From Candidatus Omnitrophota bacterium (GTDB taxonomy: Bacteria > Hinthialibacterota > Hinthialibacteria > Hinthialibacterales > JAKPRU01), in the NCBI GenBank assembly GCA_029570205.1, contig JAKQSI010000053.1:22477-86476 (forward strand): a DNA stretch of 64,000 nt. The letters run 5' to 3'. The stretch's first letter is position 1; each line of letters opens with the position of its first letter. Shown here piece by piece: positions 22,369 to 31,575 of this stretch. Made by a program: the position numbers and the translations under genes. Under the pieces are notes generated by a model that saw only the letters and a program-made list of their open reading frames with translations, was not told the DNA's origin and did not search any database.

Positions 22369-24483
22369 TCAAATGGTCAAGGATTCAAGGAAGGGGGTGG
22401 CAGATTTCTTCTCGGATGCTGCGGAAGTCAGAATATCCAGTTGATATAATTCCAGGCGGTTCATCACCAAACCGATGATTTTGCCGCCGGAGGAATGAAT
22501 GCGACGCACGGCCATTTGAATTTCGCGCGATGTGGATTGTCCGCTGCCGGATATGAACAGGCTGACATCCGTCATGCTGCCGAGCAGCGCCGAATCGGCG
22601 GCAATCAATCCGGCCGGAGCATCCACAAGAATCCGGTTGAATTCCTTTTCCAACTCCGACAGAAGCTCCCGCATTTTCGGCGATCCGATCAGCTCCACGG
22701 GGTCGCAGGTCACCCGGCCTGCCGGAAGGATTGTCACACCGAGGATATCCACGCGCTTTAATGCGTCCTGGATGGGAAGAGAACCCGTAAGCAGATCGCA
22801 CAATCCCGGAACAAGATCTTTTTCAAACAGGGAATGAATCTGGGGTGAGCGCAGGTTGCCGTCTACCAGCGCCACGCGATGCCCTTGCTGGGCCAGAACG
22901 GATGCCAGGTTGACGGCGACAGTTGTTTTACCTTCCCCCGGTCGTGCGCTGCAGAGAGAGACTTTTCGAATCCCCTGCCGTTCGAGCGCCAGGTCCAGAA
23001 ATCTCCCTAACGACCGGAATGCTTCCGCCGTGGGAGAATGGGGCAAGTCCTGGGTTATCCGGCTGACTGAAAGCGGACGGGGTATTTTGAAGACCGGGAT
23101 CGCGGAGACTGTCGGCAACCCGGAAGCCCGTGATGCCTCATCGGGACTCCGCACCTTGCGGTCATGGAATTCGAGGAGGCACGCCAAAGCAATGCCGCCG
23201 CACAAGCCGCAGACCAGCGAAATCAGAAGCATAAACTGGGGCGAATGCCTTTGCGGTGTTGCGGACGCTTGCGCCCATGAATGCACCCGAACTTCCTTGA
23301 TCCGGACAGGATGGTCGTTTTCCCCGGAGGCTTTCTCCCGATTGATTCGTTCCGACAACGCCTCTCGTTCGGAGCGCATTTGCTCCAATTCGTCCTCCAG
23401 CGAAACGATGGTTGAATAGCGCTGGTTGTCTTTTTCCAATTGTCCTGCCAACTGCGTGTGTTGGTCTTCCAGCGCGGTCAGTTCACGACGCGCCTGCTGT
23501 TGTCGCGCCTTCGCCCGTTCGATGATTCGGTTTTCCTCATTGCGGATTTCGGTTTCGAGTGCGTCACGTTGACGCTGGAGCGTGATGTAAGTCGGGTGAC
23601 GCCTCCGATAGCGTTTCGAGACCTCTTGCCATTTCGCGTCGATTTCCTTCCATTGTTCTCGAAACCGGTCGAGGTTCTCGGACCGGAGGATTTCCCGATT
23701 GACTGTGCCGTCCGCCCGAAACAGGCTGTTGTAGTTCATTTCGGATTCAACCGCTTCCGCTTCGGCAGTTCGCAACCGATCCACGAGCTCGGTTTGTCGG
23801 ACGACCGTATCGGAGATGCTTTGCACAATCTCCGCGACGCTTCGGCCTTCTTTGAGAGTCTCAATTCTCTCTTTAATCTCCCGAATCCCTGTGTCGATCT
23901 TCGCAAAGGTTTCTCGGTCTTCCGCCGGGAGGGAAACCGTAAAACCGGCCCCCGCTGCGATTTCCTCCGCGATCGCATTGGCAAACGACGCCGAAATAAT
24001 CGAGTCCGGAGAGGTAAACTCCACATAGACCAAATCTTCTTTTTCAGCGTCTCCCCGCACAGCCACCTGGCATAAGAATGCGCATGTGACCCGACGTTGA
24101 ACCGCAGGGGGCAGACTCTCCAGGGTTCGACTGCCGGAGGCCGTCGAGATTCCTGACCGTGACAACATCCATCTTTTCGGTCGGTTGAGCACGTCCATTT
24201 TCCGGACGATTCTTCCCGGAAAATCGTCCTGACTGATACATCGTTTCAGTTCATCCGCGAGGGCATTCGAATCGGGTGGAGTTTGTCCGTCCGTTGTGGC
24301 AATCGTTTCAACGTGTAGACAGGCCGTGGCGCGGTGGGATGTTTGATGCAGGCGATGTGTTACAAATACCGAAGCGGCTGCGGCAGCGGTCACCCCCAGA
24401 ACAACCCCCCGATGCCGATACAAGAGGGAAACGGCGGAACGCAGGCGGCCGATAAACTGTTTGAGGGCGGAACGCGATTTCAT
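22369..24483 (-). CDS. Wzc-like polysaccharide copolymerase / BY-kinase-like protein
   Basis: 704 residues. A membrane span near 23-41, a long periplasmic coiled coil (about 190-400), a second span near 425-445, then a cytoplasmic P-loop domain. Walker A is SARPGEGKTT. The A' motif reads LVDGNLRSP instead of the usual DxD/DxR form, and Walker B reads ILVDAPAG instead of DxPP. The C-terminal tail has one Tyr rather than a Tyr cluster, so classic autophosphorylation is doubtful. Start: ATG at 24483 after GGTGAGG; a GTG at 24492 overlapping the Wza stop is the alternative. Pairs with the Wza-like gene upstream for capsule/exopolysaccharide chain-length control and export. Confidence 0.88.
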   Translation of the reverse strand: MKSRSALKQFIGRLRSAVSLLYRHRGVVLGVTAAAAASVFVTHRLHQTSHRATACLHVETIATTDGQTPPDSNALADELKRCISQDDFPGRIVRKMDVLNRPKRWMLSRSGISTASGSRTLESLPPAVQRRVTCAFLCQVAVRGDAEKEDLVYVEFTSPDSIISASFANAIAEEIAAGAGFTVSLPAEDRETFAKIDTGIREIKERIETLKEGRSVAEIVQSISDTVVRQTELVDRLRTAEAEAVESEMNYNSLFRADGTVNREILRSENLDRFREQWKEIDAKWQEVSKRYRRRHPTYITLQRQRDALETEIRNEENRIIERAKARQQQARRELTALEDQHTQLAGQLEKDNQRYSTIVSLEDELEQMRSEREALSERINREKASGENDHPVRIKEVRVHSWAQASATPQRHSPQFMLLISLVCGLCGGIALACLLEFHDRKVRSPDEASRASGLPTVSAIPVFKIPRPLSVSRITQDLPHSPTAEAFRSLGRFLDLALERQGIRKVSLCSARPGEGKTTVAVNLASVLAQQGHRVALVDGNLRSPQIHSLFEKDLVPGLCDLLTGSLPIQDALKRVDILGVTILPAGRVTCDPVELIGSPKMRELLSELEKEFNRILVDAPAGLIAADSALLGSMTDVSLFISGSGQSTSREIQMAVRRIHSSGGKIIGLVMNRLELYQLDILTSAASEKKSATPFLESLTI

Positions 24484-24488
24484 ACGCC

Positions 24489-25586
24489 TCACCCGGATTC
24501 AGATGCTTTGTTTCGAACGAGAATAACATCTCCCTCTTGAACGGATATATCCTCTGCCGTCGCGGATTGAATTGTGGCGAGCGGGTACTGCATCGTCCGG
24601 AGCGGGCTGGGACGGATCAGTTTCAACATTTCTTCGTTACGGTTCTCTTTGAATGCGATCGACGGAAGAATCTGTTTCAGGGTCAGATCGTCTTCCCACT
24701 GTCGAACCCCCGGCTCGACCACGTTCCCGCCCACATAGTACAAACCTTTTCCCAGCACAGTCACACAGTCCCCATCCTGCAAATCCAGGTCTTTGGCCCG
24801 CAGGTTGTTTCGAATTGCAGCCGGATCGACCAGGATTTCATCGGTTCCTTCGCGTCTCACAACAATCCATCCGGTCAATTCGTTTTCCTTCAGACCCGCC
24901 TCGGCCAGGAAATCGAACAGCGTAATGCGTACAATCCTGGCTACATCCACCGGCTCCTTGACCGCGCCGGTGAGCCTGATCCGTCCGGCTTCAGGGACAA
25001 TAATCTCATCGCCGGGACGCAACATGAAATTGAGCATCTTGCCCGCAAGTCCCTTGGAAAAAAGCAGGTGACGGTCAATCCGAACTTCTCTGGGACGTTT
25101 CCGTCCGCGAAGAATGATCTCCGAGGCCGCGCGGTCTTCCAGAATCCCGCCTTGATGTTCAAGGGCATCTCGAATCCGCATTTTCTCCTGTAACGGTGTT
25201 GCCCCCGGCTGCCCCACAGCTCCCTGAACCTCCACGACATATCCCGGGCGCTCTTTGATTTTCACACTCGCACGGGGAGTCCAGAGGTATTCCTCATCGA
25301 CCAGGCGTTTCTCAATATGTCGGGCCAGCTCCGTCGGAGTTTTCCCTGCGGCCTCCACCTTCTGCAACAGCGGAAATTGGAAAGTTCCGTCACGGCCCAC
25401 TTCGCGAGTCATGGTCAGCATGGGTTCGTCCTGAACTTCGATTTCGAGAATATCTCCCACGTCGATCACAAACTCATCTGCGGCCCAGACATAACCGCTG
25501 AAATTCAATGAGACAGGGATGAAAAAAACGACCAGGATGGGCAGAATCTTCCTGAGGAGGTCAACAATGGAGGCAGTTGTATTCAT
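24489..25586 (-). CDS. Wza-like outer-membrane polysaccharide export protein
   Basis: 365 residues from the ATG at 25586. A hydrophobic signal sequence ends in YVWAAD; no lipobox cysteine is visible, unlike E. coli Wza. The poly-export domain follows (VGDILEIEVQDEP..., GTFQFPLLQKVEAAGKTPTEL), then SLBB-like beta-grasp segments (VQGAVGQPGATPL, LTGAVKEPVDVARI, YVGGNVVEPGVRQW). The family forms an octameric channel that works with Wzc. First gene of a Wza-Wzc pair read leftwards. Confidence 0.9.
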   Translation of the reverse strand: MNTTASIVDLLRKILPILVVFFIPVSLNFSGYVWAADEFVIDVGDILEIEVQDEPMLTMTREVGRDGTFQFPLLQKVEAAGKTPTELARHIEKRLVDEEYLWTPRASVKIKERPGYVVEVQGAVGQPGATPLQEKMRIRDALEHQGGILEDRAASEIILRGRKRPREVRIDRHLLFSKGLAGKMLNFMLRPGDEIIVPEAGRIRLTGAVKEPVDVARIVRITLFDFLAEAGLKENELTGWIVVRREGTDEILVDPAAIRNNLRAKDLDLQDGDCVTVLGKGLYYVGGNVVEPGVRQWEDDLTLKQILPSIAFKENRNEEMLKLIRPSPLRTMQYPLATIQSATAEDISVQEGDVILVRNKASESG

Positions 25587-25913
25587 TCGCTCCGTGCTTT
25601 CCCGAAGATTCAAGACCGGCGCCGAATACCGTCCGGCGGACTACCCGGCGCCGATCTGCAATCAGTTCATAGTGACTTGGGCACGGCATCCCATGCCCGA
25701 TGCTCTCCCGCGTGCTTGTGCCGATCAGGCCGCTCCACCCTCGGCTTGCCCCCAGCCGGCAGAGTAGCCGGACGGCAGGGGAACATTCGCCTCTATTCTA
25801 TGTTCCCGCATCCGGATTTCGCAATAGATATGCCAATCGCGGCTTGGCGCTCTTCCCAGAACGTCCACAGTGAGGCATCCTGTGCCGGAACTTGTTACAG
25901 GGGCGGAGCTCAC
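25587..25913. other. Divergent intergenic region between the Wza-like gene and the ABC permease
   Basis: 327 bp with no convincing gene. A 9-bp element CCGGCGCCG occurs twice (25616-25624 and 25645-25653). The frame of the downstream permease is open through here from 25677 but codes a low-complexity, unfamily-like N terminus, so it is treated as untranslated. Confidence 0.5.
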
Positions 25914-27800
25914 ATGAAATCCTTCCTTCGAAAACTCTTCCGAAATCCGATCCTCATGGATTACGGAATGCTTGTGGTTCTCCTTGTGGTCAGCCTCTTT
26001 CTCAGCTGGGCCACCTATCGAGAGGGGGAGGCCATCACGGGAGTGGAAGGGGGCAGAAGTCTGGCCGAGAGCGCAGCCGGTCGGTTCCCCGGCGGTGTCT
26101 TCATCGTCATTTCCTCTAACACCGGCGCCGATTCTTCCGCATTGCCCGATTCGGAGTCGGTCCTGAAAACCTTGAACGATCTTCACTGCACCGTGGCGGC
26201 TGTCATTCCCGCCGCGGATTCGCTTCCGGCCTTTCGACGGGAGGTCCGCGAGGCGTATCGAAATCAAGCAAAAATAGACGGGATTATTCTGGTCGATTCG
26301 TCGAAGGAGCGTTGGCTGCGGTCTGCCCTGCGCGGTCTCGAAACCGAACGGGAACCTGCCGTGATTCTTCCGGTTCGTCGTAAGGAATCCGTTTTCCTGA
26401 AACAAGAGAACCTGGTCAACATTGTCCGCCAGGCATCTGTCATTGCCATCATTGCTGCCGGAATGACGATGGTCATTATCACAGGTGGGATCGACCTGTC
26501 CGTGGGGTCTCTGGTGGCGTTCTCCGGTGTGGTGACGGCGCTTTGCCTGAAACAGGCGGGCGGTGTTCCGCTTGTCGGATTGATTGCGCTGATTTTTCTT
26601 TTCGGTGGAATGGGAGGATTCAGCCTTGGAATGGTATTCGGAAGAAGACGATGGGGGCTGCTTGCCGGGGTCGCAATATCCATATTTCTTGCTTTTCTTT
26701 CAGGAACATCTGCGCAAAATCATGTCCTTGGGATCAGACCGGTTCTGCCGGCCACGGTTCAGGCCGTGAAAGATGCCGCGCAAAGTCAGGCCGGTGGTTT
26801 GTATCTGTTTTATGATGGGGCCAAGCCGGGTGCGCAGGAGTTTATTGAAAAACTCAAGCAGACGCTCGCCACACAGACTCAAATCCCCGTTCTGGGCGAA
26901 CGATGTGTTCTCGCAACCGAATCCGTCTCCGTTGAAGAGGCCGCCAAAGAGGCCGCCGAAGAAATCCTCGGTTCCCAGCCCGACTTGAAAATCCTGTTCG
27001 GCATGGATCGGGACATTCATTCCGGTCTGAATCGCGCCATTGATGCGGTCGGCGCAACCGAGCGCCTCGTCGCGGTTCGTGCCGTAACCGATAAAACCGG
27101 GCTTGTTTTATTTGCCGTGGTTGTGGGGATTCTGGTGGGCTGCCTGGGCGGGGCCATGTCCGGTGTCGTGATTACAGGCTTCGGGATACCGCCGTTCATC
27201 GCGACCCTGGCGATGATGCTGGTCGCGCGCGGGATCTCACGATATCTATGCAGTGGCGTGCCGATCTGGGATCTTCCGGAGGAATTTGAGTTCATCGGGA
27301 ACGGGTATCTGTTCCAGGAGGCGCTGGGAAACAAGATGCCTGTGCCGGTGGCCGTTATGATTCTCGTTTTTCTGGTGGGGCATTTTGTTTTGTCCGACAC
27401 ACGTTTTGGAAGGTATCTTTATGCCGTGGGTGGAAATGAAGAAGCGACCCGGTTGTCGGGTATTCAGGTCAATGCGGTTAAGTTCTTTGCGTATGTCATT
27501 ACGGGCGGGCTGTCTGCGGTTGCCGGGATTATCATGGCCGCGCGGCTGCAATGCGGTCATCCTGAAACGGGAGCGCTGTATGAATTGTATGTCATCGCGG
27601 CGTGCGTGGTCGGCGGAACCAGCCTCATGGGAGGACAGGGCAAGATCCTCGGCTCGCTGATCGGGGCGCTCTTGATCTGGGTGATCTTCAACGGATTGAA
27701 TCTTCTTTATGTGGACAGCTATTTACAGCAGGCCATTCTTGGATTAGTGATTTTCGTGGCCGTTTTGTTGGACCAGGCCAAGAAGCGTTTTTCAGGCTGA
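25914..27800 (+). CDS. Ribose-type ABC permease with two inserted periplasmic-binding-protein-like lobes
   Basis: 628 residues, about twice the usual RbsC-type permease (320). GGAG is 6 nt before the ATG. The permease core is unmistakable: NIVRQASVIAIIAAGMTMVI...GGIDLSVGS (about 169-198), GIPPFIATLAMMLVARGIS (424-442), RFGRYLYAVGGNEEATRLSG (498-516) and VVGGTSLMGGQGKILGSLIG (565-584). Insert 1 (about 36-160) lies after the first membrane span: a strand GVFIVISSNTG, then IDGIILVDSS and PAVIL resemble the N lobe of a type I sugar-binding protein. Insert 2 (about 265-394), after an extra membrane span, has AAKEAAEEILGSQPDLKILFGMDRD, resembling a C lobe. No ATPase or separate binding protein is adjacent. 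Sugar import or sensing is inferred. Confidence 0.85.
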   Translation: MKSFLRKLFRNPILMDYGMLVVLLVVSLFLSWATYREGEAITGVEGGRSLAESAAGRFPGGVFIVISSNTGADSSALPDSESVLKTLNDLHCTVAAVIPAADSLPAFRREVREAYRNQAKIDGIILVDSSKERWLRSALRGLETEREPAVILPVRRKESVFLKQENLVNIVRQASVIAIIAAGMTMVIITGGIDLSVGSLVAFSGVVTALCLKQAGGVPLVGLIALIFLFGGMGGFSLGMVFGRRRWGLLAGVAISIFLAFLSGTSAQNHVLGIRPVLPATVQAVKDAAQSQAGGLYLFYDGAKPGAQEFIEKLKQTLATQTQIPVLGERCVLATESVSVEEAAKEAAEEILGSQPDLKILFGMDRDIHSGLNRAIDAVGATERLVAVRAVTDKTGLVLFAVVVGILVGCLGGAMSGVVITGFGIPPFIATLAMMLVARGISRYLCSGVPIWDLPEEFEFIGNGYLFQEALGNKMPVPVAVMILVFLVGHFVLSDTRFGRYLYAVGGNEEATRLSGIQVNAVKFFAYVITGGLSAVAGIIMAARLQCGHPETGALYELYVIAACVVGGTSLMGGQGKILGSLIGALLIWVIFNGLNLLYVDSYLQQAILGLVIFVAVLLDQAKKRFSG

Positions 27801-27809
27801 GGAGACGCC

Positions 27810-27914
27810 ATGCTGCGGCGACGCAAACTCAAAACAGTCCGACTGTTTTTTTTGACACTTTATACGGCGTTGATCTACCTGCTGATCAAGATCCGGGGCA
27901 AAATCAAGGCCTGA
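27810..27914 (+). CDS. 34-residue single-span membrane microprotein
   Basis: MLRRRKLKTVRLFF then a hydrophobic stretch (about 12-26) and a basic tail RGKIKA. The ATG is preceded by GAGGAGACGCC and lies 9 bp after the permease stop, so it is probably in the same transcript and translated. Basic residues at both ends leave its topology open. No family recognised. It could be a small subunit or regulator of the permease, as with other transporter-associated microproteins, but that is inference. Confidence 0.6.
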   Translation: MLRRRKLKTVRLFFLTLYTALIYLLIKIRGKIKA

Positions 27915-27960: not shown

Positions 27961-29112
27961 ATGAGAGAAATCACGGTCAATCTCCACGAACGCAGCTACA
28001 AGATTCTTGTTGAAAAAGGCACGCTTCAACGGGTTGGACGACGTGCCGAGCGGTTGGGACTGCACTCGCCCATCGCGGTGATTACCGATCCCACGGTGCA
28101 GAATCTCTATGGGGACGTGATCTGCACAATGCTTCGGAACCAGGGATACCAGTTCGGCCTGCTCTGCATCCCCGGTGGGGAAGCCTGTAAGAATCTCGAT
28201 ACGGTGCGGGTGTTGTACGATCAAATCATTGACCTTGGTGTCGAACGTCAGGGCGGTATTGTCGCTCTCGGCGGAGGGCTGGTGGGCGATGTCGCGGGAT
28301 TTGTGGCTGCAACCTACCTGCGCGGAATTCGTTTCATCCAGGTGCCGACCACTCTCCTGGCCCAGGTCGATGCCAGTGTGGGTGGAAAAACCGGCGTGGA
28401 TCACCCCAAGGGGAAAAACCTCATTGGTGCGTTTCATCAGCCCAGCCTGGTTTTAATCGACCCCTCCACGCTCAAGACCCTTCCCACGCGGGAACTCCTC
28501 TGCGGCCTGGCGGAAATCATCAAGCATGGAATCATCGGCGATCCCAAAATCTTCGCGTTTGTTCAAAAGAACCTGCGCGAACTGCTTTCGGTTGACGAGG
28601 AAACCTACGCGGACCTGGTCGCACGGAACTGCCGGTTTAAAGCGAAAGTGGTGGAACAAGATGAAAAGGAAGGCGGGTTACGCGCCATCCTGAACTTTGG
28701 GCACACCATCGGACATGCGATTGAATGTCTCACCGGCTACACTCGGTATCTTCATGGGGAAGCAGTTGCCATCGGGATGCTGGTCGAGACTCTTATCGGC
28801 GTTCGGATGGGAATCTCTTCGGAAGAGCTGTTTGAAGAGATTTTTGCCGTGATCCGTGATGCGGGATACCCGCTTGATCTACCCGATGTTTCTGCGGAGC
28901 AAATCGTCGAAGCCATGCGACGCGACAAGAAAGTTGTGCAGGGGACCATCCGTATGGTCATTCCCAAACGTCTCGGACAGATCGAGGTCCGCGAAATCAA
29001 AGAGGAGCGACGGATCCTGGAATCCTGGAAAGACTTGCAGAGTCGGCTGCGAACAATCGGAACTTCCGACAAGATGGATGCCCCAACCCGCAATGTGGGG
29101 GCCACAACCTGA
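27961..29112 (+). CDS. aroB: 3-dehydroquinate synthase
   Basis: 383 residues; converts DAHP to 3-dehydroquinate in the shikimate pathway using NAD and a divalent metal. Signatures: LGGGLVGDVAGFVAATYLRGI, the VDASVGGKTGVDHPKGKNLIGAFHQP loop, LAEIIKHGIIGD, and the metal ligands E (CGLAEIIK), H (FGHTIGHAIE) and H (YLHGEAVAIGM). About 20 extra residues follow the normal C terminus (from about residue 362) with no recognisable motif. The start codon at 27961 follows a GGAGG with a long 13 nt spacer. It begins 46 bp after the microprotein. Confidence 0.97.
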   Translation: MREITVNLHERSYKILVEKGTLQRVGRRAERLGLHSPIAVITDPTVQNLYGDVICTMLRNQGYQFGLLCIPGGEACKNLDTVRVLYDQIIDLGVERQGGIVALGGGLVGDVAGFVAATYLRGIRFIQVPTTLLAQVDASVGGKTGVDHPKGKNLIGAFHQPSLVLIDPSTLKTLPTRELLCGLAEIIKHGIIGDPKIFAFVQKNLRELLSVDEETYADLVARNCRFKAKVVEQDEKEGGLRAILNFGHTIGHAIECLTGYTRYLHGEAVAIGMLVETLIGVRMGISSEELFEEIFAVIRDAGYPLDLPDVSAEQIVEAMRRDKKVVQGTIRMVIPKRLGQIEVREIKEERRILESWKDLQSRLRTIGTSDKMDAPTRNVGATT

Positions 29113-30432: not shown

Positions 30433-31575
30433 ATGAAAACACACACGCTTGTCCTGGTTACGCTGTTCCTGTCCATCGGGACAACTGTTTTTGCTCAGGG
30501 TCAGGCTTCCGACCAAGGATTTGTACCGTTATTCAACGGGACAGACCTGAGCGGCTGGCAGCTCGCGGGCGGAGAGAAAATGTCGTTCTCCGTGCGGGAT
30601 GGCGCGATCTATTGCGACGGGACTGCGAACTATCCGCACTGGCTTCGGACGGAACGCATGTATGAGAACTTTGTTCTTCGTTTCGAATTCAAAGTTCCCG
30701 GCTGGTGTGAGAACGGCCTGTATATCCATGCTCCCCTGTTCGGGCGTTGTTCGAATGTGGGACTCGAATTTCAGATCAGTCATGATGTCGGCACCAGTGT
30801 GAAATCCACCGGCGCGATTTTCCCCGTTGTTCCTCCCATGGTGGCGGCCGCCAAAGACAAGAACCAATGGAACTCGGCGGAGATTATGATGAATTGGCCG
30901 ATCTACCAAGCCACTCTGAACGGCCAGGTCATTCAAAATGTCAACCTGGAAGAACACCCGGATCTCCAATATCGACCGCGTTCGGGATATATCGGCCTTC
31001 AGGACAACGGGTGGGAAACCGGATTCCGCAATCTGTCCATCCGGGAATTGCCGGGGCAGGAGCAGTGGATTTACCCGCTGAACGGCAAGGACCTGGATGG
31101 ATGGGAACTGCTCGGAAGACACTCGCCGAATGGGGGCGGGCAATGGCGCATGGAAGATGGCGCGCTGGTTGCATCCAACGGGGATGGTCACCTGGTGAAC
31201 AACCTGGACTTCAAGGATCTTGAGATTCAGCTGTATGTCCGCACGGAGGACATCGCGAACGGCGGAGTCTTCTTCCGCTGGAAGGATGAAAAAGATCGGG
31301 GGTATGAGATTCAGATCTTCGATAACCCCGATTCCAATCACCAGACCGGCAGCCTTTATGGAATTGCGCGCGCCAGCCACATGCCGGTCCGGTGCGGAGA
31401 ATGGTATCCCTTGCAGATCATTGTCAAAGGACCGCGCTGCATTGTCCGGTTGAATGGGGAGACCGTGGTCGATTACGACAAACTCGAGACGATCCGACCG
31501 GGGCATATCGCTCTGCAAATGCACAAGGAGAATTCAACGATCCGGTTCCGCGATCTCCGCGTGAAGAGGTTATGA
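30433..31575 (+). CDS. Secreted tandem DUF1080 (3-keto-disaccharide hydrolase-like) protein
   Basis: 380 residues: signal peptide (1-22, ends VFAQG), then two DUF1080 jelly-roll domains, about 28-205 and 212-380. Each starts with the family's Trp-rich entry (FNGTDLSGWQLAGG; LNGKDLDGWELLG) and contains GLYIHAPLFGR / GGVFFRWKDEKDRG and GYIGLQDNGWETGFRNLSIREL / GHIALQMHKENSTIRFRDLRVKRL. DUF1080 is linked to keto-glycoside hydrolysis. A tandem copy in one chain is uncommon in my recollection. It follows the glycosyltransferase by 11 bp. Confidence 0.88.
   Translation: MKTHTLVLVTLFLSIGTTVFAQGQASDQGFVPLFNGTDLSGWQLAGGEKMSFSVRDGAIYCDGTANYPHWLRTERMYENFVLRFEFKVPGWCENGLYIHAPLFGRCSNVGLEFQISHDVGTSVKSTGAIFPVVPPMVAAAKDKNQWNSAEIMMNWPIYQATLNGQVIQNVNLEEHPDLQYRPRSGYIGLQDNGWETGFRNLSIRELPGQEQWIYPLNGKDLDGWELLGRHSPNGGGQWRMEDGALVASNGDGHLVNNLDFKDLEIQLYVRTEDIANGGVFFRWKDEKDRGYEIQIFDNPDSNHQTGSLYGIARASHMPVRCGEWYPLQIIVKGPRCIVRLNGETVVDYDKLETIRPGHIALQMHKENSTIRFRDLRVKRL

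Follow-up and report, generated by a model that had tools for sequence, protein, structure and literature searches.

The window, a stretch of 64,000 nucleotides, carries a gene for an RbsC-type sugar ABC permease of the CUT2 class, followed by a microprotein gene and aroB (Table 1), and this order was kept in the congener G001. Inspection of the locus confirmed the preliminary description in that neither a binding-protein gene nor an ATPase gene adjoins the permease. Upstream, divergent genes (22369-25613) specify a protein for polysaccharide export and a chain-length/tyrosine autokinase protein, placing an exopolysaccharide cluster next to the permease, and downstream of aroB, at 30433-31575, is a gene for a member of the 3-keto-disaccharide hydrolase family (PF06439, E 3e-70).

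Table 1. Coordinates of the permease, its parts and the adjoining genes in the window
Feature	Position	Strand	Basis
RbsC-type (CUT2, BPD_transp_2) sugar ABC permease with two inserts, 628 aa	25914..27800	+	ORF translation; Pfam/NCBIfam; orthologues in G001, G002 and G011
Insert 1, residues 36-160, extracytoplasmic alpha/beta domain with weak collinear C-lobe likeness	26019..26393	+	hhalign; low-confidence secondary-structure prediction
Extra TM hairpin, residues ~217-267, with basic cytoplasmic turn GRRRW	26562..26714	+	Hydropathy; similar hairpin in L074
Insert 2, residues ~268-394, divergent C-lobe copy of an RbsB-type binding protein	26715..27095	+	hhalign; PDB profile matches; residue alignment
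Canonical permease core, TM4 to C-terminus, including the GGNEEATRLSG segment	27096..27797	+	Best Pfam stretch, residues 393-616
34-residue basic-hydrophobic-basic microprotein	27810..27914	+	Class-wide single-copy family; neighbour of the permease by position only
aroB, 3-dehydroquinate synthase	27961..29112	+	TIGR01357, E 3e-119; downstream

The sole domain recognised by Pfam in the permease was BPD_transp_2 (PF02653; E 3.5e-40, 138 bits against a cut-off of 26.8). The top NCBIfam match was the RbsC ribose permease model NF007067 (E 1.5e-75), which aligned in two separate stretches and fell under its equivalog cut-off, so the permease is assigned at family level only. The spacing between the GIDLSVGS and PPFIATL motifs is 233 residues, compared with 60-64 in nearly all relatives, and a further 125 residues are present after TM1; the usual, though not strictly defining, uninterrupted CUT2 membrane core of ~320 residues is therefore broken in this protein. 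Translation, motif spacing, hydropathy and conservation in relatives all agree with the earlier claim that the permease has reached double length through two large extracytoplasmic insertions. In two congeners, G001 and G002, the protein is 91-96 % identical over its whole length, with both inserts kept and changes mainly synonymous, and both inserts are also present in G011, a distant member of the class, at ~40 % identity over the second half of the permease. This retention and pattern of change indicate that the long form is not an artefact, but genuine and under selection. The permease core was the most conserved part, with 73 synonymous versus 10 non-synonymous changed codons. Fourteen genomes of this class were sampled, and two near relatives of the window genome are filed as Candidatus Omnitrophota. 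The two inserts occurred together in only four sampled genomes (the window genome, G001, G002 and G011), representing just two independent lineages. The G011 permease is split across two reading frames (L030:9511-11443), reflecting either assembly error or recent damage. A sequence search of the PDB returned no solved homologous permease, a scan of viral contigs found nothing, and no description of this architecture was found in the literature searched, absence there being weak evidence. A single-sequence AlphaFold model of the whole protein (pLDDT 45) was set aside for fold assignment.

Hydropathy places insert 1 between TM1 and TM2, and insert 2 after an extra TM hairpin, just ahead of canonical TM4. 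The N-terminus of CUT2/RbsC-family permeases is expected to lie inside; combined with the hydropathy profile, this orients both inserts outwards, as had been predicted, with insert 2 reaching the outside because of the extra hairpin. Insert 1 was also found without insert 2, at the same insertion site, in permeases of ~430-490 residues from four other groups searched as phyla (26/343, 23/132, 6/80 and 6/68 genomes). Among the longer loci examined, nearly all have the one-insert permease adjoining rbsB, rbsA or both genes, and rbsA was at most 1.5 kb away in 40 of 57 short loci. GH38 alpha-mannosidase genes were located near half of ten longer one-insert loci (5/10; L031, L051, L055, L056 and L057), a hint that some one-insert systems may take up mannose-type sugars. 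One of the one-insert permeases (L074, contig C779 of G727) lacks insert 2 and shows, at the insert-2 site, an additional hairpin whose turn reads GRRRR; this hairpin-only form is a plausible evolutionary intermediate. No branching order of two-insert, one-insert and ordinary permeases was recovered with resolution.

The 34-residue microprotein is a real gene, as proposed, given that changes among three congeners were mostly synonymous and at third positions (7 synonymous versus 1-2 non-synonymous codons). A 14-sequence profile gave one match, and no more, in every one of the 14 class genomes (E 1.6e-10 or better); the profile was built from those same sequences, but most are already recovered when the window sequence is used by itself. 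Only partial matches were returned from 372 genomes outside the class, with E above 0.003, which is about chance, and there was no match in Pfam or NCBIfam. Family members (the window copy, L169-L179, L028 and L029) are 30-40 residues long and share invariant L, T and Y positions as well as a KI.GK(L/I)K tail that is largely conserved, the weakest member being that of G011. Neighbouring genes vary, with the permease and aroB in the window, argD-argF in family f4, clpB in part of family f2 and B12-binding radical SAM genes elsewhere in the class. Presence in all 14 genomes, ten of which show no insert-bearing permease, together with these changing neighbours indicates that microprotein and permease are not a coupled pair, and the coupling suggested in the preliminary description is rejected. 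It is instead a predicted single-span membrane protein found throughout the class, and the family arguably merits separate study.

To characterize the inserts, we used profile-profile comparison (hhalign) against 35 RbsB-type binding proteins split into their two lobes. Neither insert was recognized by Pfam, even at E 10. Insert 2 matched the C-lobe with 97 % probability (E 4.9e-11, 103 columns), and its match to the N-lobe was at the level of chance in shuffle controls. A search of the PDB with the insert-2 profile also reached type I binding proteins within the C-lobe (3brs, E 0.0031; 4wut, E 0.043). The homology of insert 2 to the C-lobe found in sugar-binding proteins of RbsB type is clear, in keeping with the earlier reading of it as a lobe of a type I sugar-binding protein, and insert 2 is under purifying selection, its changed codons being 47 synonymous and 13 non-synonymous.

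The likeness of insert 1 is weaker. A profile built from 53 permeases scored 27 against the C-lobe over ~90 collinear columns, compared with 10.4 ± 2.2 (maximum 16.4) for 60 shuffles, 15 for the reversed control and at most 15.1 for pieces of the RbsA ATPase. Run separately, the one-insert and two-insert families gave C-lobe probabilities of 66 and 41 %, respectively; across the C-lobe comparisons, scores were 27-31. The N-lobe score of 12.3 was at chance, since the shuffles averaged 10.5 ± 2.3 and 13 of 60 scored as high. Insert 1 is thus probably a C-lobe relative too, as judged from these profile scores, and was not borne out as the N-lobe it had been taken for; with both inserts resembling the same half of a binding protein, the proposed pairing of an N-lobe with a C-lobe fails. 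The predicted order of helices and strands in insert 1 is a-b-a-b-a-b-a-b, at low confidence. An AlphaFold model built from three rows reached pLDDT 58 and pTM 0.52; no binding-protein fold was found for it with Foldseek or VIA-align, a result that is uninformative at this pLDDT. Matches of the model to proteasome-lid, deaminase and RadC folds (Z up to 6) were likewise discounted, the model confidence being too low to inform. TAL-effector repeats returned by a PDB profile search contained no single significant stretch and were rejected as a repeat artefact. Insert 1 was the fastest-evolving part of the permease, with 27 synonymous versus 20 non-synonymous changed codons relative to G001, and its identity between phyla was low (~20 %).

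Candidate partners of the permease were identified elsewhere in the window genome. Contig C42 carries an orphan binding-protein gene at ~15.0-16.1 kb and an orphan RbsA-type double-ATPase gene at ~44.7-46.2 kb, ~29 kb apart and neither adjoining a permease. The ATPase gene is near the contig end, and in G001 that side shows a convergent unrelated gene. In G011, an rbsB-rbsA pair without an adjoining permease was present on a different contig from the two-insert permease, whilst an intact ATPase was not recovered from the fragmented G002 assembly. In maximum-likelihood trees, the orphan ATPases of the window genome, G001 and G011 formed a clade (98/97) sister to the ATPases of one-insert systems (89/91), and the orphan binding proteins nested among those of one-insert systems (99/98). 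Within the class, only the four genomes with a two-insert permease showed this type of binding protein. The genome thus holds the RbsA-type ATPase and RbsB-type binding protein that typify a CUT2 system, though on unlinked genes, and by their sequence relationships the C42 proteins are most likely the partners of the permease. With the three genes unlinked in the window genome, this partnership draws on the trees and on co-occurrence in only two independent lineages. The orphan binding-protein gene lies immediately 3′ of a glycosyltransferase-like gene (PF13524; L139:7049-9260), an arrangement kept in three congeners.

Alignment of the lobes also allowed us to consider whether the permease could bind sugar itself. 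The binding proteins of related systems share three invariant positions in the C-lobe, namely R (in SVIQR), N (in GIND) and D (in VGFD), and by analogy with RbsB these presumably touch the sugar. In pairwise alignment the corresponding residues of the window insert 2 are F, D and R; insert 2 of G011 likewise lacks the invariant R, N and D, and the orphan binding protein retains all three. These replacements make a binding site built into the permease unlikely. The outward orientation and lobe-like size of both inserts, the absence of a binding-protein gene beside the permease and the precedent of permease-fused binding domains in GlnPQ and OpuA (PMC8025302, PMC11065425) would all suit a self-contained receptor, in which the inserts together supply both lobes of a single binding protein, form a ligand cleft and render a separate binding protein unneeded. 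Such self-sufficiency would call for a complete two-lobe domain with intact ligand residues. What was found instead is two C-lobe-type inserts, the first not N-lobe-like and the second with its otherwise invariant residues replaced, in a genome whose separate RbsB- and RbsA-type partners are complete and belong to the right clade. Moreover, the one-insert relatives use a normal binding protein. The suggestion that the transporter carries its own binding site is accordingly not supported, and we consider a self-contained receptor very improbable.

We therefore favour, as a probable though by no means settled reading, a permease that is the membrane subunit of a three-part CUT2 importer with scattered genes, the C42 proteins as its partners and the two C-lobe-derived domains as a docking or gating surface. 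The permease would be served by a periplasmic binding protein and an RbsA-type double ATPase, each a separate product encoded elsewhere, and the two domains derived from a binding-protein C-lobe would occupy outward loops of each permease subunit. In the dimer expected of such a permease, the inserts may form a larger surface for docking or gating as opposed to a sugar-binding site, and could hold the loaded binding protein or sense and report its state, in a manner modelled on the MalF P2 loop. A lobe is the part that docks on the permease, so a tethered copy could plausibly line the docking surface. We infer the partnership, the dimerization and the docking or gating role, the last by analogy, and C-lobe homology alone does not show docking.

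Several other explanations bear on the inserts. The rapid evolution of insert 1 runs against docking and would suit a looser arrangement, in which the inserts are structural decoration in permissive loops with no specific docking or gating role; the low identity of insert 1 between phyla fits this equally. Decoration sits poorly, however, with the persistence of insert 1 at an unchanged site across four further groups searched as phyla and with the clear purifying selection on insert 2, and we judge it unlikely, if still deserving of some weight. The derivation of the inserts from a lobe of the docking partner itself, combined with the loss of residues conserved for the ligand, might alternatively point to decoys, whereby the inserted C-lobes compete for the docking site or hold the binding protein inactive and so throttle the importer. 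Permanent tethering of such a competitor would call for some means of release, however, and as none is visible this seems improbable. Of similarly low probability is a speculative arrangement in which the C-lobe inserts associate with one another, or with the N-lobe of a binding protein that has docked, and create a hybrid cleft for a new ligand, allowing the permease to sense a sugar allosterically; if true, the receptor would consist of one and the same half-lobe present twice. Least probable of all is that the protein has ceased to be a transporter and now acts as a sugar-related sensor or scaffold. This would explain the separation of the permease from the ATPase and binding-protein genes, and both its orphan location and its additional domains are consistent with it, but the core is the most conserved part of the protein and matching orphan ATPase and binding-protein genes persist in the same genomes.

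These data suggest that halves of binding proteins have been copied into the loops of their own transporter type, giving rise to one-insert, hairpin-only and two-insert forms. Should the inserts dock the binding protein, they would provide a natural test of how CUT2 importers recognize a loaded binding protein. The insert-1 domain is widespread, yet has no Pfam or NCBIfam model, and permeases that carry it would simply be annotated as ribose permeases.

Compared with known systems, the window permease shares its membrane core with the RbsC/CUT2 permeases of ribose, arabinose, xylose and allose transporters, and its partner genes are also of RbsB and RbsA types. It differs from these in being twice as long, with its two extracytoplasmic inserts plus an additional TM hairpin, and in having its genes scattered as opposed to gathered in one operon. 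The one-insert CUT2 permeases are closer, having insert 1 at the same site with recognizable sequence and related RbsA and RbsB proteins, but they lack insert 2, occupy normal rbsB-rbsA-permease neighbourhoods and show the hairpin only in L074. MalF belongs to a different permease family, and its P2 loop is a different domain that does not derive from a binding-protein lobe. The resemblance to MalF lies in the presence of a large periplasmic domain in a permease loop, and it is by analogy with this loop that the functional model is proposed here; according to the titles of two studies (J Biol Chem 2009;284:17521 and J Bacteriol 2009;191:754, listed in PMC3328499), the binding protein of the maltose importer is in contact with this P2 loop through the transport cycle. 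In GlnPQ and OpuA, the permease is joined to complete two-lobe domains that bind ligand (PMC8025302, PMC11065425). The window permease is similar in that domains derived from binding proteins are covalently part of it, but these are single lobes in loops with the conserved residues gone, and separate binding proteins exist. In sum, the protein is most likely a CUT2 permease with two C-lobe-derived inserts that acts with a separate binding protein.
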